Source of the DNA: Vreelandella halophila
GTDB taxonomy: Bacteria; Pseudomonadota; Gammaproteobacteria; Pseudomonadales; Oleiphilaceae
DNA: 64,000 nucleotides
Direction of reading: 5' to 3'
Assembly (NCBI RefSeq): GCF_019903425.1
Contig: NZ_JACHUZ010000011.1
Span: forward strand, 191,141-255,140
The translations under genes were made by a program, and so were the position numbers. A model generated the notes under the pieces. It had not been told where the DNA came from. It searched no databases and saw nothing but the letters and a program-made list of their open reading frames with translations. Positions 11,094 to 20,849 of this stretch are shown piece by piece. Numbering within the stretch: position 1 is the first letter of the stretch; the number at the start of each line of letters is the position of its first letter.

Positions 11094-11122
11094 AAAAAAG
11101 CCGCAGCGTCCACTGCGGCTTT
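11094..11122 (-). terminator. Original tRNA-Met terminator, now 9.7 kb from its gene
   Basis: A 10-bp perfect stem (11097-11106 with 11113-11122), loop of 6, followed on the minus strand by six T. It follows the displaced 3' half of tRNA-Met, so it was the tRNA terminator before the prophage inserted. Confidence 0.8.
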
Positions 11123-11177
11123 CTGAATACTGGTAGCAAGGGGCGGATTCGAACCGCCGACCCCGGCATTATGAGTG
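11122..11177. repeat. attL: displaced 3' half of tRNA-Met
   Basis: Identical over 56 bases to 20783-20838; bases 11131-11177 are the 3' 47 bases of the tRNA including the CCA-encoding end. The match breaks at 11178. It is the copy left behind at the far end of the prophage and is not a functional tRNA. Confidence 0.95.
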
Positions 11178-11270
11178 GCCGGAACTAGCTATCAGGATTC
11201 GTAAATAACTGAATTCACGGTTTGCCGCAGCCCGTGAAGCGAGGTTGAACGATAGTGTCCGGTGTTTTGG

Positions 11271-11285
11271 TAGTCAAGTAGTCAA
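11271..11285. promoter_or_regulatory. Candidate integrase arm sites, left end
   Basis: TAGTCAA occurs twice (11271-11277 and 11279-11285), about 95-110 bases inside attL. The same heptamer occurs twice near the right end (20729, 20740). Paired direct repeats on both sides of a tRNA core fit arm-type integrase sites; binding is inferred. A separate inverted repeat, TTCACGG (11214-11220) with CCGTGAA (11232-11238), lies between attL and these sites. Confidence 0.45.
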
Positions 11286-11319
11286 CGGGGGCAAAGCGGG
11301 CTTATTGCCAGTTTCCGGA

Positions 11320-11550
11320 TTACGTTTCCGGGCTGGTTTGACCAGCTTCCGGGATCACTTCCCCAGTCATCAGCCAGTAGGAATACTGCGGATATATCTC
11401 CTTGAGCACTTCCAGTTCTTGGGTGCTCATTCTGATTCCTTTGTATAGAACACTCTTCCATCGGGAGAACCCGATAGAGCTTGATCGAACTAGCGTGTCG
11501 ATGCCTGCTGATTTAATCAGCATTTTTGCTCGATCTTCTATCGATTCCAT
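11320..11550 (-). CDS. Cro-like phage regulator, paralog 1
   Basis: A 76-aa HTH protein and one of three tandem paralogs. The presumed recognition region is FSRWKSVLYKG and the conserved tail reads YWLMTGEVIPEAGQTSPET. I start at MESIEDR (11550), because the other two copies begin at the same residue; a longer reading would include the duplicated 3' end of the neighbouring copy. No good ribosome site precedes it, and it starts 13 bases after the stop of paralog 2, so reinitiation is possible. About three quarters of residues match paralog 2. Probably part of the lysogeny switch. Confidence 0.75.
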   Translation of the reverse strand: MESIEDRAKMLIKSAGIDTLVRSSSIGFSRWKSVLYKGIRMSTQELEVLKEIYPQYSYWLMTGEVIPEAGQTSPET

Positions 11551-11563
11551 ATCGGTATACGCA

Positions 11564-11794
11564 TTACGTTTCCGGGCTGGTTTGGCCTGCTTCTGGTATG
11601 ACCTCACCTGTCATCAGCCAATAGATGTGGTTGGGATAAACCTCCTTCAGCACTTCCATTTCTTCGGTGCTTAGACGTACGTCTTTATACAGGATGTTTT
11701 TCCACCTTGAGCTGCTGATTACGCCTGATCTGACCAGGGTGTCTATTCCAGCCAGGTTGATTAGTAACTTTGCTCGGTCATGGATTGATTCCAT
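11564..11794 (-). CDS. Cro-like phage regulator, paralog 2
   Basis: A 76-aa protein with the same plan as its neighbours: MESIHDRAKLL, presumed recognition region SSRWKNILYKD, tail YWLMTGEVIPEAGQTSPET. It has the best ribosome site of the three (AAGGAG, 11 bases upstream). The last 13 residues are identical to paralog 1, which suggests recent duplication or gene conversion, while the presumed DNA-reading part differs. Likely a repressor or antirepressor acting on the sites at 12164-12227. Confidence 0.78.
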   Translation of the reverse strand: MESIHDRAKLLINLAGIDTLVRSGVISSSRWKNILYKDVRLSTEEMEVLKEVYPNHIYWLMTGEVIPEAGQTSPET

Positions 11795-11877
11795 TCTGTT
11801 GGCTCCTTTGGTTCTGAGTTCAACAAAGCAGCGTTAGCGCCGTCGATACCAGCGGTCCAATACTTCCTTAGTGATGC

Positions 11878-12147
11878 TTATCCCTCGGCGGGTCCCGCTA
11901 ACTTTGAATCTACTGAGTCGTAGTCTGGGCTTGTCTGACCGGCTTCCGGGATGACTTCTCCTGTGATCAGCCAGTATGCGTACTGAGGGAACAACCTTTT
12001 CAGTTCGTCCAGTTCCTCTGTGCTCATTCGGACGTTTTTATAGGTCACGCTGACCCATCTGGAATACGGGATCGCCGTTTCCTTTCCAATCCTGTCCACC
12101 CCGTACTGCTTAATCAGGGTTCTAGCACGGTTCTGGGTTGATTCCAT
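11878..12147 (-). CDS. Cro-like phage regulator, paralog 3 (promoter-proximal)
   Basis: An 89-aa protein and the first gene read from the divergent control region. It shares the fold and tail (YWLITGEVIPEAGQTSP) but diverges most in the middle (YSRWVSVTYKN) and has a 13-residue extension after the tail. Small proteins with this RW...STEEL...YWL.TG...PE.GQ pattern are common as Cro/CI-type regulators in phages of gammaproteobacteria. Being next to the operators and opposite the AlpA-like gene, it is the best candidate for the primary repressor. Confidence 0.8.
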   Translation of the reverse strand: MESTQNRARTLIKQYGVDRIGKETAIPYSRWVSVTYKNVRMSTEELDELKRLFPQYAYWLITGEVIPEAGQTSPDYDSVDSKLAGPAEG

Positions 12148-12163
12148 ATCGATCTAAGCAGAC

Positions 12164-12227
12164 CTTCAAAAAGTGATTTCAATAGTTGAAAGCTCGGCCT
12201 GCGCTTGCTATCTTTCAAATAGTGAAA
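12164..12227. promoter_or_regulatory. Divergent phage control region with three operator-like sites
   Basis: Three related 15-mers: TTTCAATAGTTGAAA (12177-12191, perfect dyad), TTTCAAATAGTGAAA (12213-12227, dyad with 5-base arms) and the weaker CTTCAAAAAGTGATT (12164-12178). Centres lie 13 and 36 bases apart. They sit between the leftward regulator genes and the rightward AlpA-like gene, as lambda-type operators do. Which paralog binds which site is unknown. Confidence 0.65.
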
Positions 12228-12304
12228 TCAAAGATGCAAAGAGCTAAGCCTCACTCAAAACCCGCAAAACGCGGAAAGTGACTGTTAATAAGGCTCCTTA
12301 CGCC

Positions 12305-12526
12305 ATGGTAGATCAAACTTTACCGGAAAGCATTTCTGACCCCGAAAACCGGGACTGGCCCCCTCTCATGGAGTGGCGCGAGTTCGCGGACTGGATCCGT
12401 GTTCGGCGCAGCATCGTGGAAGGCTGGATCCGCCTGGCTTACATCCCGACGTTCAAGATTGGCCGTCATCGCCTGGTGAACGTCGCCCGCCTCATCGAAC
12501 AGATCCAGGAAGGGGAGTTCTCGTGA
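12305..12526 (+). CDS. AlpA/excisionase-like HTH protein
   Basis: First rightward gene of the prophage. The 73-aa reading from the ATG at 12305 has AAGG 11 bases upstream; a GTG at 12278 would add nine residues but its GGAAA is too close. The core EFADWIRVRRSIVEGWIR followed by IPTFKIGRHRLV is a MerR/AlpA-type winged HTH as found in phage excisionases and early activators. It may direct excision with the integrase or act against the repressors. Start uncertain, family fairly clear. Confidence 0.72.
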   Translation: MVDQTLPESISDPENRDWPPLMEWREFADWIRVRRSIVEGWIRLAYIPTFKIGRHRLVNVARLIEQIQEGEFS

Positions 12527-12819
12527 TGACCTTTTTTGAAATGATGCTTCTGCGTGAGGCCAGGTTGCATGCCTATGAGGGGATCACCCTCAAATTTGAA
12601 GGTAATCACCTGGGGGCATCCGGTCGGTTTGATTACCTGCGGGGGATGAAGACTGCCGCATTTTACCTCGATGCCAGGGTGTATCAGGACATTGACCGGG
12701 CCATGGATCTTTATCTGGCTTACTTCGATGACGCCTACCAGTGCACGCCGGATGCCTTCCTCGCCGGTTATGCCATGCAGCCTTTCCGGGGCCTGTGCCA
12801 GCAGGAGGCGGCAGCATGA
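12526..12819 (+). CDS. Small phage protein of unknown function (97 aa)
   Basis: No family recognised. ATG 12526 overlaps the previous stop (TGATG), with AGGGGAG eight bases upstream. The product is soluble and rich in aromatic residues (MTFFEMMLLREARLHAYEG, then FDYLRGMKTAAFYLDAR). Its stop overlaps the next start. It belongs to a chain of four genes with 4-base overlaps, typical of translational coupling in small phages. Confidence 0.65.
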   Translation: MTFFEMMLLREARLHAYEGITLKFEGNHLGASGRFDYLRGMKTAAFYLDARVYQDIDRAMDLYLAYFDDAYQCTPDAFLAGYAMQPFRGLCQQEAAA

Positions 12820-13184
12820 AACGGGTTCAGCCAGTCGCCAGGGAAGGGCAGAGCGTCCACGAGCGCACGGATGCGGCGGAGCAGGTGAGCCTGTCCCCGC
12901 TGCCTCAGACGCCACGTTCTGTGGCTGAACATCAGTGCTCCTGGTTTGTCGCTCCGTCTGGCGAACTCTGGCGCGTCGAGTACTACCGCACGGAATACCG
13001 CTTTTCCGGTTCGATTGCTTTCCCGCTCGTGTCCTGGTGGATCGCGACCAGGGATTGGGATGGTGGTCGAACCTTCCTTTTCCCGGCGCCGGTGGGGATC
13101 GAATACGCCTCGCATGACCTGTGGTGGCTGTTCGACCAGGCATGGCGGGCGCACGTCTTCGGTGATGTGGAGGCAGCGGCATGA
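12816..13184 (+). CDS. Small phage protein of unknown function (122 aa)
   Basis: No family recognised. The ATG at 12816 overlaps the previous TGA and follows GCAGGAGG. The first 40 residues are charged and probably flexible; the rest is strikingly rich in Trp, Tyr and Phe (CSWFVAPSGELWRVEYY, VSWWIATRDWDGG, DLWWLFDQAWRAH), suggesting a compact beta-rich fold. No signal peptide. The stop overlaps the next ATG. Confidence 0.6.
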   Translation: MKRVQPVAREGQSVHERTDAAEQVSLSPLPQTPRSVAEHQCSWFVAPSGELWRVEYYRTEYRFSGSIAFPLVSWWIATRDWDGGRTFLFPAPVGIEYASHDLWWLFDQAWRAHVFGDVEAAA

Positions 13185-13336
13185 TGGATTGCCAGACCAT
13201 GCAGCAGTTAGCCCTGCCATTGCGTTTCTCTCTTTCTGGATCACTTCCCGAGTCAGCGGAAGTGGGTCATTGCATGCCGGAACTGCTCCGGTACTGCCAC
13301 GAATACCAACGGCAAAAGCAGGAGGACCCGTCATGA
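13181..13336 (+). CDS. Tiny phage protein (51 aa), coupled to both neighbours
   Basis: ATG at 13181 overlaps the preceding TGA, and its own TGA at 13334-13336 overlaps the ATG at 13333 of the next gene, so the reading frame is framed on both sides by coupled genes. It begins MMDCQTMQQLALPL and ends HEYQRQKQEDPS. No homology recognised. Support comes only from this coupling, so it is moderately secure. Confidence 0.5.
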   Translation: MMDCQTMQQLALPLRFSLSGSLPESAEVGHCMPELLRYCHEYQRQKQEDPS

Positions 13337-13599
13337 GCCGCATTCCTCCGCGCCAGCAGAACCTGGAAGACCCGGATAAGCGCTTCTATGTCGTCGCGCC
13401 CGCGTCTGTCCGGTTGGCGCTGCAACAGGAGGCATTCCGACGCGATACAGACCTGTGGGATCTCGGTGGTGCGGTGCTGTCCGCCTGGTTGGCGGCAGGC
13501 TGCCCGGATTTCTGTGATTTCCCCCAGGAGTCAGATGGTGATGAGAGCCCGTCCCCGTCATCGTCGCCGCTCGCGGACTCGGAAGGAGGTGAGGCGTGA
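13333..13599 (+). CDS. Small phage protein (88 aa) ending inside a giant hairpin
   Basis: Last of the coupled tiny genes; ATG at 13333 overlaps the previous stop. The body (FYVVAPASVRLALQQEAFRR, DLWDLGGAVLSAWLAAGCPD) is helical and resembles small phage DNA-associated proteins, but I cannot name a family. The C-terminal 20 residues are an acidic/serine tail. Its 3' end is also the left arm of the large inverted repeat beginning at 13573, so coding sequence and DNA structure overlap here. Confidence 0.6.
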   Translation: MSRIPPRQQNLEDPDKRFYVVAPASVRLALQQEAFRRDTDLWDLGGAVLSAWLAAGCPDFCDFPQESDGDESPSPSSSPLADSEGGEA

Positions 13600-13855
13600 G
13601 CCGCGCAAGGCCGCGAAGCGCCGTAAGGCTTGGCCTTGCGCGGCTCACGGCTCGCCTCAGAGTCCGCATAGAGAGCGGCGGCGCTGACGGGGACGGGCTC
13701 CGTCCCTTGATTCCGAGCCGTGAGCACAGGACGGCAAGCGGAGCGCGCAGGGAGCGCAGCGACCGGAGGCGGCAGGGATCGTTACCCGTAAGGGCAACGG
13801 CCTTAGCCGTTGTTGGCCAGGTCACTGGCCAATAGAGCCCGGCCCGAAGGGGCCG
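13573..13855. repeat. Hairpin-packed non-coding region: candidate packaging signal/ssDNA origin
   Basis: No gene is seen from 13600 to 13884. Perfect inverted pairs: 13596-13612 with 13632-13648 (17 bp, lengthened by 13573-13580 with 13660-13667); 13690-13696 with 13700-13706; 13796-13801 with 13806-13811; 13813-13819 with 13826-13832; 13840-13845 with 13850-13855. In addition 13643-13654 is perfectly complementary to 13714-13725, so two alternative folds compete for the same strand. Filamentous phages keep their packaging signal and minus-strand origin in such hairpins. Assignment is by analogy. Confidence 0.6.
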
Positions 13856-13884
13856 CAATCATTAATGAAACCGGAGTATGAACG

Positions 13885-14223
13885 ATGAAACAGACACTTA
13901 CCCTGACAGTCCTCGGTGCGCGTCGTTTCGACATCGACGGGAATAAAATCGGCCAGATTTTCACCATGGAACCGGCCGACCCGGACGATGCCGACCGCAT
14001 CGGTCACGACGTCATGAAGTGGGGCTGTGATTACGACCTGGTTGAGAAGATCGAGCAGTACGCGGATCAACTCCCGTGCGAGTTCGACGCGGAAGCCCTT
14101 ATGAAGGCCGGGAGCCGCCAGTCAGCGCAGTTCAAGCTGCTGAGCCTCGCCAAGCGCCAGATCAGCGGGGGTAAATCCAGTGGCGGCAGCGGCGCCAGTC
14201 AGAGCGCCCAGGCCAGCCAGTAA
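13885..14223 (+). CDS. Phage ssDNA-binding protein (gene V-like)
   Basis: The 112-aa protein is in the position of gpV: just after the structured region and before the coat genes. It begins MKQTLTLTVLGARRFDIDG, a beta-strand start typical of small inoviral ssDNA-binding proteins, and ends in a disordered Gly/Ser/Gln tail like those of ssDNA-binding proteins. In filamentous phages this protein coats the newly made strand and prevents its conversion to duplex before export. Family assignment rests on position and composition. Confidence 0.6.
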   Translation: MKQTLTLTVLGARRFDIDGNKIGQIFTMEPADPDDADRIGHDVMKWGCDYDLVEKIEQYADQLPCEFDAEALMKAGSRQSAQFKLLSLAKRQISGGKSSGGSGASQSAQASQ

Positions 14224-14253
14224 CGGCAGTCTCAAGAAACGGTGATTCCAGTG

Positions 14254-14559
14254 ATGCGCTTAATGCTTCTGTTCCTGGTTTGTGCCTTCTCAGCCCCGGC
14301 GATATCCGGCGGCTGCCTGGTTGAAACCACAAGCGGCGATCTGCGCATCACCACCCAACCGGTTTCCGAATGCTCCGGGTACGTCGTGCTCGACGCCCAG
14401 GAGTATTCCCAGTATCCGACCCTTAAATCGTTGTTCGCATTCCCGGATGCCAAGGATTTGGGGAAGGTGTGGAGCATCGGTGCCGGCTTACCGATGTTCT
14501 CGTACTTGATCGCCTGGGCCTTCGGGTCGGTGATCAACTTTATCAATCCAAGAGAATGA
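14254..14559 (+). CDS. Small phage membrane protein, possible minor coat protein
   Basis: About 101 aa from the ATG at 14254; GTG codons at 14242 and 14251 are alternative starts. The ATG gives a clean signal peptide (MRLMLLFLVCAFSAPAIS). Two cysteines follow (GGCLVETT, SECSGY), then a C-terminal membrane helix (MFSYLIAWAFGSVINFI). Located between the ssDNA-binding protein and the major coat protein, where pVII/pIX-type minor coat genes lie, though those are shorter. Function not established. Confidence 0.6.
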   Translation: MRLMLLFLVCAFSAPAISGGCLVETTSGDLRITTQPVSECSGYVVLDAQEYSQYPTLKSLFAFPDAKDLGKVWSIGAGLPMFSYLIAWAFGSVINFINPRE

Positions 14560-14571
14560 AGGAGGTGCGTT

Positions 14572-14796
14572 ATGCGCATTCGTGCACTGTTCGCGGCGCT
14601 GTCGCTGATGCTGTTTTCAGCGGTGGCAGCAGCATCCGGCGGCGGCGGTGGTGGTGGCTCACTCGACATGTCGGGTGTGACCTCGGCGGTCGATGCTTCA
14701 ACCATCGTCGCCGCGATTTCGTCCATCGCCGCCATCAAGATCCTGCCCGGCGTTGCCCGGTGGGGTTATAACAAGGTGATTGGTTGGTTCAACTGA
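14572..14796 (+). CDS. Major coat protein precursor (pVIII/Pf1 CoaB-like)
   Basis: The 74-aa precursor has a signal peptide (MRIRALFAALSLMLFSAVAA) and a mature part of about 53 residues: a flexible Gly-rich N-terminus (GGGGGGGSLD), an amphipathic/hydrophobic helix (TIVAAISSIAAIKILPGVAR) and a basic/aromatic end (WGYNKVIGWFN) that would face the DNA. Size and layout match the single-helix coat subunit of filamentous phages. A very strong AAGGAGG precedes the ATG and a strong terminator follows, as expected for the most abundant phage protein. Confidence 0.88.
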   Translation: MRIRALFAALSLMLFSAVAAASGGGGGGGSLDMSGVTSAVDASTIVAAISSIAAIKILPGVARWGYNKVIGWFN

Positions 14797-14799
14797 CAC

Positions 14800-14835
14800 A
14801 CACGTATGGCCGGGGCTCCCGGCCATACGTGTTTT
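14800..14835 (+). terminator. Rho-independent terminator after the major coat gene
   Basis: A 14-bp perfect stem (14800-14813 with 14819-14832), 5-base loop, then TTT. Analogous to the strong terminator after gene VIII in M13, limiting expression of the minor coat genes downstream. Confidence 0.9.
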
Positions 14836-14956
14836 GAGGGGCTGACATGTTATGGCTTGGGCTTTTTTTTCTGTCGGGCAGTTTGTGCGGTTTTGCGATC
14901 GTCAAAGGCTTCACAAGTCTTTGAACCTCTTTTCTAGGGGTAAAAGGTGTTTATCA

Positions 14957-16363
14957 ATGACCCGTATTCCCTCGTTATTTGTGCTATTTGCCTTTCTCTT
15001 TTTGTTGCTACTAGTTGATGTAACTAGTCCGGTTTTTTCTGCTCAGGATTCATATACTCCTGAGGTTGTTTGTAGTCAGGCATACTATAGCTCTAGCTAT
15101 AAAAATACAGATCTTTGTTCCGGCCCTAATTCTCGGCAAGATCATCATAACTCAGGCGGTGGTGATTATCCCTGGTCGGGATGGTCTATTGGGTATGCTT
15201 CTTGTAATGAGGGGTATTCTCCTGAATGGTCTGATGTAGGTGTGGCTGATCCACTTCAGGAACAAAAAATGGAATGTGTTGCTGATCAATGTCCTCCTGG
15301 TCAGACTAAGGAAATTTCTTTTGAATCGTCTGAATTAAATGATGGTCAATTTCCCGCCACTACTTGCAATTCTGGTTGTCAGTATTCTTTAGATCCTGGT
15401 CCGGGTGTTATCGGCGATTCCGGTGTAGCGTCTTATACGTCTACCGGTGAGCAGTGTGATTCCTCCGATGATGGTTCAGACGGTGGCTCCGATGGTGGTT
15501 CTGACGGCGGTTCCGATGGCGGCTCGGACGGTGGCTCCGACGACGGCTCTGATGGCGGTTCTGATGGCGGTTCTGATGGCGGTTCTGATGGCGGTTCTGA
15601 TGGTGGCTCCGATGGCGGCTCCGATGGCGGCTCCGATGGCGGCTCCGATGGCGGTTCCGACGGTGGCTCTGATGGCGGTTCTGATGGGGGCTCCGATGGC
15701 GGTTCCGACGGTGGTTCCGATGGTGGCTCCGATGGCGGCTCTGATGGGGGCTCCGATGGCGGTTCCGATGGCGGTTCTGACGGCGGTTTCGATGGCGGTT
15801 CCGATGGCGGTTCCGATGGCGGCTCTGATGGGGGCTCCGATGGCGGCTCTGACGGCGGTTCTGATGGCGGTTCCGATGGCGGCTCTGATGGCGGCTCTGA
15901 TGGCGGCTCTGATGGCGGCTCTGACGGCGGTTCCGATGGCGGTTCCGATGGCGGTTCCGATGGCGGTTCCGATGGTGGCTCCGATGGAGGTTCAGGCGGT
16001 AACGGTGATGGAGATGGAGATGGAGATGGAGATGGTGAAGATGAAGGTGAAGGCGTAGGTACCCCAGGGGTTGATGCGGGTGACTTTTATGAAAGTAAGA
16101 ATCCCGATGGTGTTGAAAAAGTCATGTCCGATTTTAACGCCGAAATCGGGAAAACGGAGTTAATGAAATCCGTTGATGGTTTTTTTGATGTGGACATCAA
16201 TGGGTATTCCTGCCCGGTATGGACCATCCCCAGTGTCATGAAGATGCCCGCGATTACGATTGATCAGCAATGTTCCAGCGCTATGAATCAAATCTGGCCC
16301 GGAATTGCGGCGATTATTATCGCGACCTGTGGGTTTTATGCGTTTCGGATAGCGGTGTTGTGA
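14957..16363 (+). CDS. pIII-like adsorption protein with DGGS repeat stalk
   Basis: The 468-aa protein starts at ATG 14957 (AAAAGG about 10 bases upstream), giving a signal peptide (residues 1-29). Residues 30-170 form a cysteine-rich N-terminal domain (eight Cys), presumably receptor-binding. Residues about 172-346 are a stalk of 43 tetrapeptide units, nearly all DGGS, then an acidic GDGDGD stretch. Residues about 365-468 form a C-terminal domain ending in a membrane anchor (GIAAIIIATCGFYAFRIAVL). This is the pIII plan of two domains joined by glycine-rich linkers, with a far longer linker. The N-terminal part has a much lower GC content than its surroundings, a sign of module exchange. Confidence 0.82.
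   Translation: MTRIPSLFVLFAFLFLLLLVDVTSPVFSAQDSYTPEVVCSQAYYSSSYKNTDLCSGPNSRQDHHNSGGGDYPWSGWSIGYASCNEGYSPEWSDVGVADPLQEQKMECVADQCPPGQTKEISFESSELNDGQFPATTCNSGCQYSLDPGPGVIGDSGVASYTSTGEQCDSSDDGSDGGSDGGSDGGSDGGSDGGSDDGSDGGSDGGSDGGSDGGSDGGSDGGSDGGSDGGSDGGSDGGSDGGSDGGSDGGSDGGSDGGSDGGSDGGSDGGSDGGSDGGFDGGSDGGSDGGSDGGSDGGSDGGSDGGSDGGSDGGSDGGSDGGSDGGSDGGSDGGSDGGSDGGSDGGSGGNGDGDGDGDGDGEDEGEGVGTPGVDAGDFYESKNPDGVEKVMSDFNAEIGKTELMKSVDGFFDVDINGYSCPVWTIPSVMKMPAITIDQQCSSAMNQIWPGIAAIIIATCGFYAFRIAVL
15479..15994 (+). repeat. 43-copy 12-bp coding minisatellite (DGGS)n
   Basis: Forty-three contiguous in-frame 12-base units of the form GAY GGN GGN TCN. Two variants: unit at 15539 gives DDGS and unit at 15779 gives DGGF. 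Third-base changes vary between units, so the array is not a perfect repeat. It is followed by GGAGAT hexamers (about 16011-16035). Gain or loss of units keeps the frame. Confidence 0.97.
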
Positions 16364-16370
16364 GGCTGTT

Positions 16371-16682
16371 ATGGATTGGGTGTCGGATGTACTTGAGTGG
16401 ATAAAAGAGCTGATCAAAGCGATCTTTGATGCCTTCTGGGATTTGCTTTCGGATATCGGCCTGATACTGCTTTCGGCAATACTCGATATTTTTCTTCTGA
16501 TTATCTCGTTTTTGACGTTGCCGTCCTTTTTTGCGGGTGGGCTGTCCGAGTTCCTGGGCGGCATTGATCCGGCCGTGATGTATTTTCTGTCGAAATCAGG
16601 CCTGGGGGCAGGACTTGAGTTGATCGGCGCCGGGGTGATGTTTCGGCTGACGCGCAAACTGTTAACGCTGGGGCAGTGGTAA
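16371..16682 (+). CDS. pVI-like minor coat/assembly membrane protein (DUF2523-type)
   Basis: The 103-aa membrane protein has a long hydrophobic core (IGLILLSAILDIFLLIISFL, residues about 29-48) and a second hydrophobic part ending in LTRKLLTLGQW. The place between pIII and Zot/pI is that of gene VI in all inoviruses. pVI pairs with pIII at the terminal end of the virion. The stop overlaps the Zot ATG by one base (TAATG). Confidence 0.78.
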   Translation: MDWVSDVLEWIKELIKAIFDAFWDLLSDIGLILLSAILDIFLLIISFLTLPSFFAGGLSEFLGGIDPAVMYFLSKSGLGAGLELIGAGVMFRLTRKLLTLGQW

Positions 16683-17824
16683 TGATCATATTTCACGAGG
16701 GCTTGCCTGGGGCCGGAAAAACGTATGAAGCAATGGTCTATCAGGTGCTCCCCGCTATCGAGAAAGGCCGAAAAGTGTATGCCTACATCAATGGGATTGA
16801 TCATAAAAAGATAGCGGGCGTGCTTGATGAATCCGAAGAGCGTGTCCGGTCTTTGCTCATCCCGCTTTCGGAAGACCAGGTCCCGGAAGTGCACAAGCAT
16901 GTTGAAAATGACTCGTTGGTGGTCCTGGACGAACTCCAGAACTTCTTCCCGGCCGGTCGCCAGAAGCTTTCAGACGGCGTCACTCAGTTTGTCACAGAGC
17001 ACCGTCACCGCGGTTTGGACATTCTCGGTATCGGCCAGGATATCCGGGACTGTCACAACCTCTGGAAGCGCCGCGTGTCTCAGAAAGTCGTGTTCACCAA
17101 GCTTGATGCGGTGGGTGCGGCCAGCCGTTACAACTGGACGGTTTACAAAGCGAAAGCCGGCGAGAAGTTCGAGAAGATCCGCAGCGGTCGCCGCAAGTAT
17201 GACCCGAAGTATTTCGGGATTTACGCCAGCCACACGCAGGACACCGAAAACACGGACGACTTCAAGGACGACCGGGCGAACATTCTGAAAACGCCAGGCT
17301 TTAAGTACGGCCTTCCGGCGGCGGTATTGGTTGGGTTTATGGCGGTTAATTACCTGGTGTCGTTCCTCAATGATCCGGGTTTTGTCGAGAAGGAACAAAC
17401 CGAAACGGAGCAACAGCAGGCAGGCAATAAAACCCAGTCGCAAGAAGTCGTGACAGTCAGCCGGGAATCGGATCAGTCAAACAGTGAGCGACGTGATGGC
17501 GTGAATGTGCCCAGGAAAGACAAAGAGCCGGAGCCGCTGGATTACTTCGATCGGATGGCGGACAAGTACCGGCTGCGCCTGTCCGGTGTGGTTGAAAGCG
17601 ATGACAAGTTAGTCGGCCGAGTGCAGGCGCTGGATGGGTCCTACCGGGTCCAGGAGCAGTTCCGATTAACCGCGATTGAGGCGCTGGGGTGGTCCGTTGA
17701 GCGCACGGGTTACGGCCTGAAAGTCGAAAAGACGGATGATCAGCGCACGGTGTCACACGTGGTGCGGCCCTGGCCTGTTGAGCCGTTCGGATCGGTACCG
17801 GACAGCACCAGTGCGAATCTGTGA
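16682..17824 (+). CDS. Zot/pI family morphogenesis ATPase
   Basis: The 380-aa inner-membrane motor extrudes the phage filament. Walker A EGLPGAGKTYEA lies at residues about 7-18 and Walker B LVVLDELQNFFP at about 80-91. A single membrane helix (LPAAVLVGFMAVNYLVSFL, about 213-231) separates the cytoplasmic ATPase from a periplasmic C-terminal domain that would meet a secretin. The ATG at 16682 was chosen because it overlaps the previous stop; a GTG two codons earlier is less likely. No pIV secretin is encoded, so a host secretin is presumably used. Confidence 0.92.
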   Translation: MIIFHEGLPGAGKTYEAMVYQVLPAIEKGRKVYAYINGIDHKKIAGVLDESEERVRSLLIPLSEDQVPEVHKHVENDSLVVLDELQNFFPAGRQKLSDGVTQFVTEHRHRGLDILGIGQDIRDCHNLWKRRVSQKVVFTKLDAVGAASRYNWTVYKAKAGEKFEKIRSGRRKYDPKYFGIYASHTQDTENTDDFKDDRANILKTPGFKYGLPAAVLVGFMAVNYLVSFLNDPGFVEKEQTETEQQQAGNKTQSQEVVTVSRESDQSNSERRDGVNVPRKDKEPEPLDYFDRMADKYRLRLSGVVESDDKLVGRVQALDGSYRVQEQFRLTAIEALGWSVERTGYGLKVEKTDDQRTVSHVVRPWPVEPFGSVPDSTSANL

Positions 17825-17833
17825 GGTGGGCTG

Positions 17834-18382
17834 ATGCGCAACGCTACGCTTGATGCAGCCAGGGCCGCTGGGATCGCGCTGATGATCCTGGATCACGTCG
17901 CAGTGGTGTACGAGTGGCCGCCGATTGTCCGGGACATCACACGCCTGGCGATGCCGCTGTTCATGGTCACGTCCGGGTATCTGTTCACGGGCAAGCTTGG
18001 AAAGCGGTACTGGGATGTATGGACAACAGCGGCGATGACCTGGCCGATGGTCGTCATCCTGGAACTGGCGCTGGTGCATGTACTGATCGTTTATGCCCTG
18101 GTGCTGCCACTGCTCAGGGCCTCCCCCGGAGCGCTGCTTACCCTGGCCTGTGTCGGCCTGCTGCAGACCTACAACTGGCCGATTCCCTGGAACGGCTACC
18201 AGCCCGGCTATCTGCTCGCGTTCCTGGTCCTGGGCCAATTCGCACGCCAGGCCGGCATCCAGATCCAACACCGCGACTGGCCCCAGTGGCTGACCTGGCC
18301 GGGGCGGTATCCACTGACGGCGTATGGGGTTCACTTGGTGGCTCTGGTGGGCCTTACACAGATGCCCTGGAAGCCGGGTTAG
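17834..18382 (+). CDS. TraX-like membrane acetyltransferase carried by the prophage
   Basis: The 182-aa polytopic membrane protein has the TraX/acyltransferase-3 opening: LDAARAAGIALMILDHV, then RLAMPLFMVTSGYLF, and later YPLTAYGVHLVAL. TraX N-acetylates F-pilin, a small helical membrane-inserted subunit made with a signal peptide, as the phage coat protein is. The gene lies nine bases after zot and ahead of rep, inside the morphogenesis block. It is shorter than F TraX. Alternatives: O-antigen acetylation for seroconversion or superinfection exclusion. The family call is from motifs, the substrate is inference. Confidence 0.6.
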   Translation: MRNATLDAARAAGIALMILDHVAVVYEWPPIVRDITRLAMPLFMVTSGYLFTGKLGKRYWDVWTTAAMTWPMVVILELALVHVLIVYALVLPLLRASPGALLTLACVGLLQTYNWPIPWNGYQPGYLLAFLVLGQFARQAGIQIQHRDWPQWLTWPGRYPLTAYGVHLVALVGLTQMPWKPG

Positions 18383-18391
18383 GGAATCAGT

Positions 18392-18449
18392 GCGCCGGTC
18401 GGCATCCCCTTGCGGACCTGCCGGACCGCTAGGGGATGCCGACCGGCGC
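18392..18449. repeat. 19-bp perfect inverted repeat before rep: candidate double-strand origin
   Basis: Arms 18392-18410 and 18431-18449 are perfectly complementary around a 20-base loop that can itself pair GCGG with CCGC. A further pair, AGACGT (18451-18456) and ACGTCT (18466-18471), follows. Position 80 bases before the rolling-circle initiator fits the cruciform at which such initiators nick. No T-run makes it unlikely to be only a terminator. Confidence 0.55.
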
Positions 18450-18528
18450 GAGACGTCCCTGTAACACGTCTTTAAGGAATCCATTAAAACGCCCAAAAGG
18501 CGTCATTAACCGATAGTGAGGTGAGAGG

Positions 18529-19770
18529 ATGAAGAACGCACCGCAGCATTGGGTATCACTGGATAGCATGATGCAGGAGTCCGATGAAGGTCGGCTGTTT
18601 GTGGATCCAGGGAATGCAACGGTTCGGGATATGTCCGATGTTCGGATCTTGTCCTTTCGTCCGGACACGGTGCGCCAGCTCTATCGGGGCAAGTTGAAGG
18701 CGGATGTTCTGGACCTGTTCCATGAACCAGGACTGGTGACGTTCATGGGCAAGCGTTGGCATGCAGGCCGGATCAGCCGGGATTCCGGATACCAGTACAA
18801 GCTCCAGAACGCGGACCTGGGCATTCTGCTGTTGATCAAGTCGTTCCACGCGAATAAGGAAACGGAAGGGAATCACCTCAAGATCGAGCTTTCGCCCCAG
18901 TTCCTGCACTCGTATTCCGAACAGGAGGTGCAGCAGCGCATAGATGAACTGGCGCAGGGGGTTCTGGAGAACTGGTGTCATGGCGGCTGTGCGGTCCATA
19001 TAGCGGCGGACGTTCAGGGCTGGGAGCCGCCGAGCGATTTTGAAGCCAGGCTTCACTGTCGCTCCAAGAAGGTGCGCACGTATAACGGCCTGGATGAATG
19101 GGACATAGACAGTCACGCGGTCCGTTACGGCCGGGGGGAATCCTTCCTTTTTGGAGCACCGAACCAGACCCAGTTGGCGGTCTACAACAAGACGGACGAG
19201 GCCAGGGCAGGGGATAAGCTGGATTACTGGCGCAACGTCTGGAATCAGTCCGGTGAGTATGACCCGGAAGAAGCGGTGTATCGGATCGAGATCCGTTATC
19301 ACCATAACGTGGTGAATCAGTTCGCCAGGGCAACGGTGGACCATGAGACCGGGGAGCTGTTTGATCTGACCAGCTATGAGGGCCTGTATCCGCACCTGAC
19401 GGGCCTGTGGGGCTATGGTTTCCGGTCGTTCCGGTATCTGGCGCGTCCTGGTTGGTTTGATCCGTTCTGGACGATTCTGACGCGGCTCAGGATGCCTGAG
19501 CATTCGGACACGGTGGAATATCGGCGCGGGTACAAGTCGGCGGACGGGTTCAGTGGCAAGAACATAGAATTGCTCCTGGGGAACTTCGTCAGCTGCTGTG
19601 CCCGTTGGAATCTGAGCAAGAACAAGAGCTGGCAGGCCCTCCAGGATATGCCGTTCTTCGATATGATCCGGGAGCACTACGCTAACAAGGGTAAGGGTGA
19701 GCGTGAGCTAAGGAACCATATGCGAAAGCTCCTTGAGGAGCGATGGGTACGGTACGGGCGCGCTGTATGA
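18529..19770 (+). CDS. Rolling-circle replication initiator (Rep_trans-type)
   Basis: The 413-aa protein is in the place of gene II. Features of phage/plasmid rolling-circle initiators are seen: NHLKIELSPQFL (about residue 120), QLAVYNKTDEARAGD (about 220) and YRIEIRYHHNVVNQF (about 250). It would nick the plus strand at the origin and start leading-strand synthesis; the nicking tyrosine cannot be fixed without alignment. GAGGTGAGAGG precedes the ATG. The stop overlaps the integrase ATG by four bases, so replication and integration genes are translated together. Confidence 0.78.
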   Translation: MKNAPQHWVSLDSMMQESDEGRLFVDPGNATVRDMSDVRILSFRPDTVRQLYRGKLKADVLDLFHEPGLVTFMGKRWHAGRISRDSGYQYKLQNADLGILLLIKSFHANKETEGNHLKIELSPQFLHSYSEQEVQQRIDELAQGVLENWCHGGCAVHIAADVQGWEPPSDFEARLHCRSKKVRTYNGLDEWDIDSHAVRYGRGESFLFGAPNQTQLAVYNKTDEARAGDKLDYWRNVWNQSGEYDPEEAVYRIEIRYHHNVVNQFARATVDHETGELFDLTSYEGLYPHLTGLWGYGFRSFRYLARPGWFDPFWTILTRLRMPEHSDTVEYRRGYKSADGFSGKNIELLLGNFVSCCARWNLSKNKSWQALQDMPFFDMIREHYANKGKGERELRNHMRKLLEERWVRYGRAV

Positions 19771-20849
19771 TCAAGAAGTATGAAAACGGCTGGATGGTGG
19801 ATTTCTACCCGGAAGGCAAATTCGGCCCACGGGTGAGAAAGCGGGGATTCCGGACCAGGATTGACGCGCTTAACTATGAGCGGAACTACTTCAATCAGCC
19901 CACGGCCCCAAAGCGTCGGCTCCTGGATCTCGTGCGGCTGTGGTACGACTTGCATGGTAATGGCCTCAAGGATCACCAGGACCGGTTCTCCAAGACCATG
20001 GCGATCGCGCAGCGCCTGGGGAATCCGCGGGTGAAGGATTTCAAGACGTCGGATTGGGCTGAGTACCGGACCAGGCGTCTGGAAGCAGTGAAGCCAGCGA
20101 CCGTGAATCATGAGCAGCGGTACCTGTCGGCGGTGTTCTCCGAGATGCGCCGCCTTGGCTACTGTGACCATAACCCGCTGGCCGATGTCCGTCAGATCCA
20201 GGTGGACGAAACCGAATTGACCTTCCTTAGCTTGGCGCAGTGCCAGCAGCTGCTCCAGGAGTGCCAGCGTAGCAGGAACACTCATGCTTACCCGGTCGCG
20301 GTGATCTGCCTGGCGACGGGTGCCCGTTGGGGCGAAGCTGAGGCGCTGACGCATTCCAGGTGGCTACCGGGCAAGGTCGTGTTCAGCGGGACGAAGAACG
20401 GCAAGACCAGGACGGTTCCGATTGATCCGGATCTACAGGCGCAGTTGACCAGGATGGCGTTCCCTGGAACTGGGAGGATGTGGGATTCGTGCCGTGCGGC
20501 ATTCCGGAAGGCTTACGAGCGGTGTGGTTTCAATACGCCAAAGCAGCTCACGCACATTCTGCGCCATACCTTCGCCAGTCACTACATGATGGCCGGGGGT
20601 GACCTGCTGTCGCTACAGCGGATCCTGGGGCATTCGAACATCCAGATGACTATGCGCTACGCGCACCTGTCGCCGGATTACCTGGAATCAGCGGTGCGGC
20701 TGTCGCCGTTGGCCCAGATGGGCGAGAGTAGTCAAAAGGTAGTCAAGGAAGGGGGCGAGGGTCAGGGCGAAGCCCGTAACCCTCTGAATACTGGTAGCAA
20801 GGGGCGGATTCGAACCGCCGACCCCGGCATTATGAGTGCCGTGCTCTAA
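19767..20849 (+). CDS. int: Phage tyrosine integrase, 3' end inside tRNA-Met
   Basis: The 360-aa recombinase integrates the phage into tRNA-Met. I start at ATG 19767 (MIKKYENGWMVDFYPEG), which overlaps the rep stop, rather than the ATG at 19743. Catalytic residues: Arg in TGARWGEAEAL, His-x-x-Arg in LTHILRHTFASHYMM, His in LGHSNIQMTMRYAHL with the nucleophilic Tyr. From residue about 340 the frame runs through attR antisense to the tRNA; the stop (20847-20849) lies outside the 56-bp repeat in host DNA. In the excised circle the frame would read three other residues and stop at TAG (11186-11188), giving the same length. Confidence 0.93.
   Translation: MIKKYENGWMVDFYPEGKFGPRVRKRGFRTRIDALNYERNYFNQPTAPKRRLLDLVRLWYDLHGNGLKDHQDRFSKTMAIAQRLGNPRVKDFKTSDWAEYRTRRLEAVKPATVNHEQRYLSAVFSEMRRLGYCDHNPLADVRQIQVDETELTFLSLAQCQQLLQECQRSRNTHAYPVAVICLATGARWGEAEALTHSRWLPGKVVFSGTKNGKTRTVPIDPDLQAQLTRMAFPGTGRMWDSCRAAFRKAYERCGFNTPKQLTHILRHTFASHYMMAGGDLLSLQRILGHSNIQMTMRYAHLSPDYLESAVRLSPLAQMGESSQKVVKEGGEGQGEARNPLNTGSKGRIRTADPGIMSAVL
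20729..20746. promoter_or_regulatory. Candidate integrase arm sites, right end
   Basis: Two TAGTCAA heptamers (20729-20735, 20740-20746) lie 37-54 bases from the right core repeat, inside the integrase gene. They match the pair at 11271-11285 near the other end. Confidence 0.45.
20757..20784 (-). terminator. Stem-loop directly downstream of tRNA-Met, supplied by the phage
   Basis: GAGGGT (20757-20762) pairs with ACCCTC (20779-20784), with inner GGGC/GCCC around GAA. On the minus strand it lies 7 bases after the tRNA CCA. It lacks a clear T-run. It may replace the lost terminator or guide 3' processing. Confidence 0.35.
20783..20838. repeat. attR core repeat within the intact tRNA-Met
   Basis: Identical to 11122-11177. 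It provides the 3' half of the working tRNA, from the anticodon stem to eight or nine bases past CCA. The chromosomal 5' half begins at 20839. Confidence 0.95.

Follow-up and report, generated by a model that had tools for sequence, protein, structure and literature searches.

The 64,000-nucleotide (nt) stretch of the Vreelandella halophila contig NZ_JACHUZ010000011.1 analysed here, referred to below as the window, carries an integrated inovirus (filamentous phage) prophage (attL to attR, 11122–20838) in which the gene behind the assembly ATPase gene zot encodes a short AT3-type membrane acyltransferase that may well act on the N-terminus of the phage's own major coat protein. The prophage is 9.7 kb long and is bounded by an exact 56-bp direct repeat (11122–11177 and 20783–20838), the right copy of which lies within the 3' part of tRNA-Met. 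It is marked as an Inoviridae-type prophage by this integration site and by the gene order coat, pIII-like, pVI-like, Zot. Repressor-like genes on the minus strand are followed on the plus strand by genes for a 112-aa protein in the position of the single-stranded DNA (ssDNA)-binding protein (13885–14223; PHROG 22642, E 2e-17, a family without named function, the role being assigned by position), a 105-aa small protein of the morphogenesis block (14242–14559; PHROG 969, E 4e-13, unknown function), the major coat protein precursor with its leader peptide (14572–14796; PF25631 Inovirus_capsid, E 1e-19), a pIII-like adsorption protein with a linker of DGGS repeats (14852–16363, although the true start may be 14957), a pVI-like minor coat protein (16371–16682; PHROG 974, E 1e-21), the Zot/pI assembly ATPase (16676–17824; PF05707, E 2e-32) and the 182-aa protein that is our subject. 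The pIII-like protein matches PHROG 10432 (E 6e-39), which has no named function, and its likely role is suggested by its place and by a weaker match to the receptor-binding PHROG 1698 (E 0.011). Beyond the 182-aa open reading frame (ORF) lie a hairpin, a gene in the position of the replication protein (rep; 18529–19770, +; PHROG 1159, E 1e-144, again without named function, the role being presumed) and a tyrosine integrase gene that overlaps attR (19743–20849, +; PF00589/PF24624).

The 182-aa ORF occupies exactly 17834–18382 on the plus strand and starts 9 nt past the zot stop (17824). The original prediction had placed it inside the morphogenesis block; it does belong to the cassette, of which it is the last gene, immediately behind zot and ahead of the hairpin and rep. 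Twelve homologues are listed at E ≤ 1e-3 (176–222 aa), the genome holds three copies of the gene, each between zot and rep (in the window, in the C13 prophage and on the 4.7-kb contig C3), and the ratios of non-synonymous to synonymous substitution rates (dN/dS) for the three pairs of copies are 0.055, 0.064 and 0.113. The gene is under purifying selection, and these three lines of evidence together show that the ORF is not a chance one. A profile of the short family, built from its alignment (A1), matched one of the 369 genomes of the class, that of the source organism, and two of the 163 genomes of the family. The C13 prophage has in common with the window a cassette that extends from within the 105-aa gene to shortly past the hairpin (DNA identity 96.0% over 14333–15010 and 89.6% over 15612–18471, with part of the pIII gene between them unaligned), and it differs in rep and integrase. 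Between the window and the C3 copy, dS of the AT3 gene (0.274) is approximately four times that of the adjacent zot (0.065), and the two genes have therefore had partly separate recombination histories.

The product had been predicted to be a TraX-like acetyltransferase, with a profile search against both families as the proposed check. The Pfam family Acyl_transf_3 (PF01757) was matched with 49.3 bits against a cut-off of 31, the best stretch being residues 4–64 of the 182-aa protein in a model of 326 positions. TraX (PF05857) scored 18.2 bits over 35 residues, below its cut-off of 25, which leads us to reject membership in that family, and a search of the whole source genome with PF05857 gave no match at E ≤ 1e-3. 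What stands is a likeness in the wide sense: profile–profile comparison aligned A1 with an alignment of inoviral TraX proteins (A6) over 172 columns (probability 94.9%, E 4.7e-8), and the gene takes the same slot as inoviral TraX. The relatives L024, L005, P0008, P0009 and P0011 pass the TraX profile (25.7–28.6 bits). Judged by these profiles and by its motifs, the protein is an unusually short AT3-type protein that is TraX-like only in the wide sense.

Three sequence motifs and a core of 10 transmembrane helices characterize AT3 proteins, the first two motifs being described in PMC12423673. The first motif, DxxR-x10-H in helix 1 (D7, R10, H21; 17852–17896, +), is invariant in all 13 sequences aligned in A1; in the second, FxxxxG in transmembrane helix (TMH) 2 (F43...G48; 17960–17977, +), F43 is invariant; in the third, RxxR in helix 3, R58 is invariant and the second Arg is not conserved, the fourth residue being Asp in the window protein (RYWD). 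The short family has in addition a GYQPG motif (residues 121–125; 18194–18208, +) that is invariant in all 13 rows of A1; L003 has GYEPG instead and L005 has not kept it. This motif forms a conserved C-terminal part with G157, P160-L161, Y164 and H167, and at the place of Y164...H167 in the last helix (18323–18334, +) inoviral TraX has YYVGHL. In the AF2 (AlphaFold2) model, which is confident and compact, the protein has seven helices of at least 12 residues and two short ones; we file it as a short AT3-like variant rather than a canonical AT3 enzyme because seven long helices are predicted instead of 10. For inoviral TraX, AF2 gave a model of poor quality (pLDDT 63), which was set aside. The window protein thus resembles the AT3 family (OafB, OacB, OatA) in DxxR-x10-H, FxxxxG, the TMH3 Arg, a late-helix Tyr and the profile match, and differs from it in length, in helix number, in its GYQPG motif and in its setting in a phage morphogenesis cassette. 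It resembles TraX (the F-pilin N-acetylation factor and the inoviral proteins of Cf1c, XacF1, XaF13 and SMA6) in the profile–profile match, in the slot behind zot that inoviral TraX also takes and in a putative leader-cleaved membrane subunit as substrate, and differs in falling below the PF05857 cut-off, in being shorter and in the helix-1 Arg, where TraX usually has Lys (PMC12423673), inoviral TraX having K10. HGSNAT (heparan-alpha-glucosaminide N-acetyltransferase), which is far larger, shares 16–18% identity with the window protein, which has His where HGSNAT has Asn (PMC12423673).

Despite the failed Pfam score, TraX is a good guide to this gene because named filamentous phages carry TraX genes at the corresponding place after zot: XacF1 (ORF9; PF05857, 157.9 bits), Cf1c (annotated 'transfer protein', 99.5%), SMA6 (annotated 'trbP-related', 57%) and, with one ORF between, XaF13 (59%). 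When viral contigs were searched with three aligned inoviral TraX proteins, 143 relatives came up, of which 79 loci were kept. In these loci, some of which share a contig and overlap, 81 of the 91 TraX ORFs, when read from their first start codon, overlap the zot stop by exactly 4 nt; the annotated TraX start in XacF1 gives a 1-nt overlap. AT3-type genes follow zot, with a small ORF between, in L003 (5.9 kb), where the end of the gene overlaps rep, and in L004 (7.1 kb). In L024, a prophage of Halovibrio salipaludis, a species grouped in one genus with the source genome, the gene lies between pVI and zot; from its inferred start it shares one base with the pVI stop, and its end and the inferred start of zot have 4 nt in common. 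The inovirus-like L005 also has an AT3-type gene (2386–2985) between pVI-like and Zot genes, along with a different rep and a long integrase/transposase-like ORF. Viral contigs scanned with P0007–P0012 gave no relative. Pairing of AT3 proteins with coats or Zots by the length of their longest contig, done by eye, yielded no pair among the rows listed (120 of 474 for Zot). L001 and L007–L017 were set aside, as the 14 Zot queries gave no Zot ORF of at least 180 aa (ORFs were read for L001 and L007).

The coat protein of the window was found as the original prediction had described it, with a leader, an Ala-rich cleavage region (FSAVAAAS) and one membrane helix. Its precursor reads ...FSAVAAA-SGGGGGGGS-LDMSGVTSAVDASTIVAA..., with a Ser-Gly7-Ser run (residues 22–30; 14635–14661, +) between the cleavage region and the coat core, and its mature N-terminus may be Ala or Ser, both being compatible with the sequence. 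This run is the proposed substrate tail. The close coats P0015 and P0016 are without the insert (...AGNASA-ALDMSGVTGAVDAATIVAA...). The Alteromonas phage phiAFP1, the best-ranked named phage for Zot (40%) and the only phage match for the coat, has a coat annotated without leader or Gly run (starting MDFTNVTSAVDASTIVAA...), and no AT3 or TraX gene was found next to zot in either record. The Gly run is missing from 83 of the 84 coat homologues listed in the protein database; the exception, P0014, is a 93%-identical cluster that may include the window's own kin. Neither AT3 nor TraX was matched in any of 78 other loci sampled by the Zot of the window's clade (58 of which show at least 700 nt past zot), and none of the 62 of these loci present in the coat table has a Gly run. 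In this coat family, as sampled, the S-G7 insert and the AT3 gene are both limited to the window lineage.

The same link is seen across the phages sampled. Of 68 distinct coats belonging to phages with an AT3 or TraX gene, 56 have at least three Gly in a four-residue window near the mature N-terminus, as against none of 49 coats from phages without one; for predicted leader-bearing coats only, the counts are 55/66 and 0/28. Fisher P values for these counts take no account of relatedness and are given no weight. Contig L272, cut after zot, has a coat without a Gly run. Another 25 distinct coats with no more than 700 nt past zot were set aside (Gly run in three), and zot ORFs were dropped for want of a coat in 30 cases without the gene, 17 with TraX and eight with AT3. 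The measure was chosen after the coats had been inspected, and Gly was counted independently of the exact cleavage site because the coat and cleavage finders misplaced cleavage in some coats. Coat tips of TraX phages include SGGGGVDV, AGGGGVDV, TGGGGVDV, GGGGGVDV, SGGGGDFDG and SGGPAEAI. The idea that these coats have an Ala terminus like that of F-pilin in common did not hold: in AT3/TraX phages Ser predominates among the predicted first mature residues, Ala, Thr and Gly occurring as well, and the Gly run comes next; for two AT3-bearing relatives the prediction is an initial Glu. The identity of the first residue was rejected as a discriminator, small first residues also occurring in phages without the gene (AGE-, GEL-, AEG-), which is why the Gly run serves as the measure. 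Once the leader is cleaved, Gln is the predicted first residue of several coats from phages lacking AT3 and TraX (L187, L194, L202, L205 and the TraX-free phage in L034), and such a terminus could cyclise to pyroglutamate, a self-made N-terminal cap.

Shared ancestry was addressed in related phages with and without the gene. A coat-sampled scan of the Xf-like family covered 80 loci: 63 with TraX, three without, eight cut and six without a visible zot. All 62 TraX loci with a VDV anchor (40 distinct coats) have at least two Gly in the four residues before the core; L259, which has no such anchor, was dropped from the count. In two TraX-free loci, L262 and L267, the predicted cleavage site runs straight into AVDV. 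The TraX-free phage of L034 has rep (85%) and ssb (99%) genes matching those of XacF1 and a zot with 28% identity to that of XacF1; 35 nt past zot comes a gene related (59%) to the one located after TraX in XacF1. The coat tip of this phage reads QAAGPGEAITTEIT, whereas TraX phages sharing its membrane segment have SGGPAEAITAEIT. A similar tail after the predicted signal-peptide site is thus seen in coat families that are not related to one another, and in each of them zot is followed by a gene from one of two TmAT families.

Because Gly-run tips were found only in phages with an AT3 or TraX gene, wherever the slot behind zot could be read, we lean towards the view that the AT3 protein acylates, with acetyl as the likely group, the free N-terminus of the major coat protein. 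The suggestion that the gene modifies the virion surface thus gains comparative evidence that ties these genes to the coat N-terminus. After leader cleavage the N-terminus of an inovirus coat faces the periplasm. The AT3 protein would take an acyl group from cytoplasmic coenzyme A (CoA) and pass it through the inner membrane, probably with DxxR on the cytoplasmic side and H21 towards the periplasm, the orientation described for the superfamily. Coat acylation would likely follow leader removal and precede Zot-driven assembly and extrusion, the Gly run serving as a flexible arm that brings the tip of the membrane-anchored subunit to the active site. The acceptor would be an amine rather than a hydroxyl, and the acyl group and the coat as substrate are likewise our inference; N-acylation would fit better than Ser O-acylation because the predicted first residues vary (Ser, Ala, Thr, Gly). 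In the resulting virion the tips would be capped and would carry less positive charge. Members of the TmAT superfamily are supplied with acyl-CoA from the cytoplasmic side and use it at the outer face (PMC12423673). F-pilin depends on TraX for its N-acetylation, and the pilus can be assembled without TraX (PMC7555446); coat capping by the AT3 protein is proposed by analogy.

Several observations weigh against this assignment. Since TraX is dispensable for F-pilus assembly, any effect on the virion might be slight. Sugars are the substrates of the AT3 proteins described in PMC12423673, the window protein is shorter than AT3 proteins described so far, with seven long predicted helices instead of 10, and Foldseek gave no match at E ≤ 1e-3 against the PDB and viral models. 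Phages with the gene were mostly sampled via TraX and those without it via Zot. Twelve of the 68 AT3/TraX coats fail the Gly criterion, and the AT3-bearing L003 (EGGPS), L004 (ETTTG) and L024 (SDGSG) lack a run of three, while the coat of L005 was not found; the AT3-type link therefore rests on the window lineage, and this half is weaker than the TraX half. One TraX-free Xf-like locus, L249, has a short Gly tail (TTGGVDV) that passes the laxer threshold of two Gly in four. The existence of 28 distinct predicted leader-cleaved coats in phages without the gene indicates that capping is not generally needed. Finally, the link may partly reflect shared ancestry and, as it spans about four coat families, stands for few independent events.

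The main rival explanation, which we consider rather unlikely, is that the AT3 protein acylates a host surface structure (lipopolysaccharide [LPS]/O-antigen, capsule or receptor pilus) and so alters adsorption or excludes superinfection. It would agree with the O-acylation of sugars by the AT3 proteins described in PMC12423673, with the O-acetylase of phage D3, which changes LPS and blocks phage binding (PMC11436027), with weak matches of the protein to an O-acetyltransferase PHROG (E 0.014) and NolL (E 0.006), and with the XacF1 report, which noted the TraX similarity of ORF9 and suggested that it may modify type IV pili (PMC4076744). Yet the gene lies within the late morphogenesis cassette, often overlapping zot in relatives, the protein is shorter than described AT3 enzymes, and surface acylation leaves unexplained why the gene tracks the coat tip. 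Modification of another inner-membrane virion or assembly protein (the 105-aa protein, pIII, pVI or Zot) instead of the major coat is still less probable: all four are encoded in the same cassette and the argument from a leader-cleaved N-terminus could extend to other proteins, but it is in the tip of the major coat that a co-occurring feature was found, the other cassette proteins not having been examined for one. That the ORF is a decayed, inactive passenger fragment of a longer AT3 enzyme, as its length relative to the 326-position Pfam model and the best match at residues 4–64 might suggest, is very improbable, being contradicted by the dN/dS values of the three copies, by the 12 listed homologues of similar length with a conserved C-terminal part and by the confident compact model.

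A broader generalization, on which we are evenly divided, is that a two-part system for capping the tip has arisen repeatedly in filamentous phages, made up of a Ser/Ala-Gly(n) tail inserted in the coat just past the signal-peptide site and a transmembrane acyltransferase behind the assembly ATPase (AT3-type here, TraX in Xanthomonas and Stenotrophomonas phages), giving acylated coat N-termini. TraX-like genes in filamentous phages are already in print and in annotations; what is new here is that the enzyme gene goes with the coat tip. Among the titles, abstract openings and open-licence full texts available, we found no test of filamentous-phage coat acylation, nothing on a Gly-tail link and no test of the role of TraX-like phage genes, the XacF1 paper being the only one found to name such a gene; the words acyltransferase, acetyltransferase and TraX do not occur in the main text of PMC6813254. 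Enzyme and coat tip would form a matched pair shaping the virion surface, and the cap would alter the charge of that surface, its adsorption and its resistance to proteases. The TraX-like genes of phages, known from the literature since 2014 (XacF1), would gain a substrate, and transmembrane acyl transfer would be extended to a viral structural protein, which would be relevant to phage display, where coat N-termini are used. For phages already in culture, acetylation predicts +42 Da on the coat.

Several other features of the prophage deserve mention. The hairpin 3' of the AT3 gene (18392–18449; 27-nt arms, 93% complementary; DNA fold −37 kcal/mol, z −9.4) is a candidate packaging signal, origin part or terminator. 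Two long inverted repeats with arms of 27–28 nt lie upstream of the ssDNA-binding-position gene (13545–13700). More than 40 copies of a 12-nt repeat encoding DGGS (15463–15996) form the very long linker of the pIII-like protein, which is 503 aa long in the window, the C13 counterpart having 467 aa. A small repressor-like protein is present as three tandem paralogues at the prophage's left end (11320–12147, −), two of them with 62 and 70% DNA identity to the reference copy, and the C13 and H. salipaludis prophages contain one match each.
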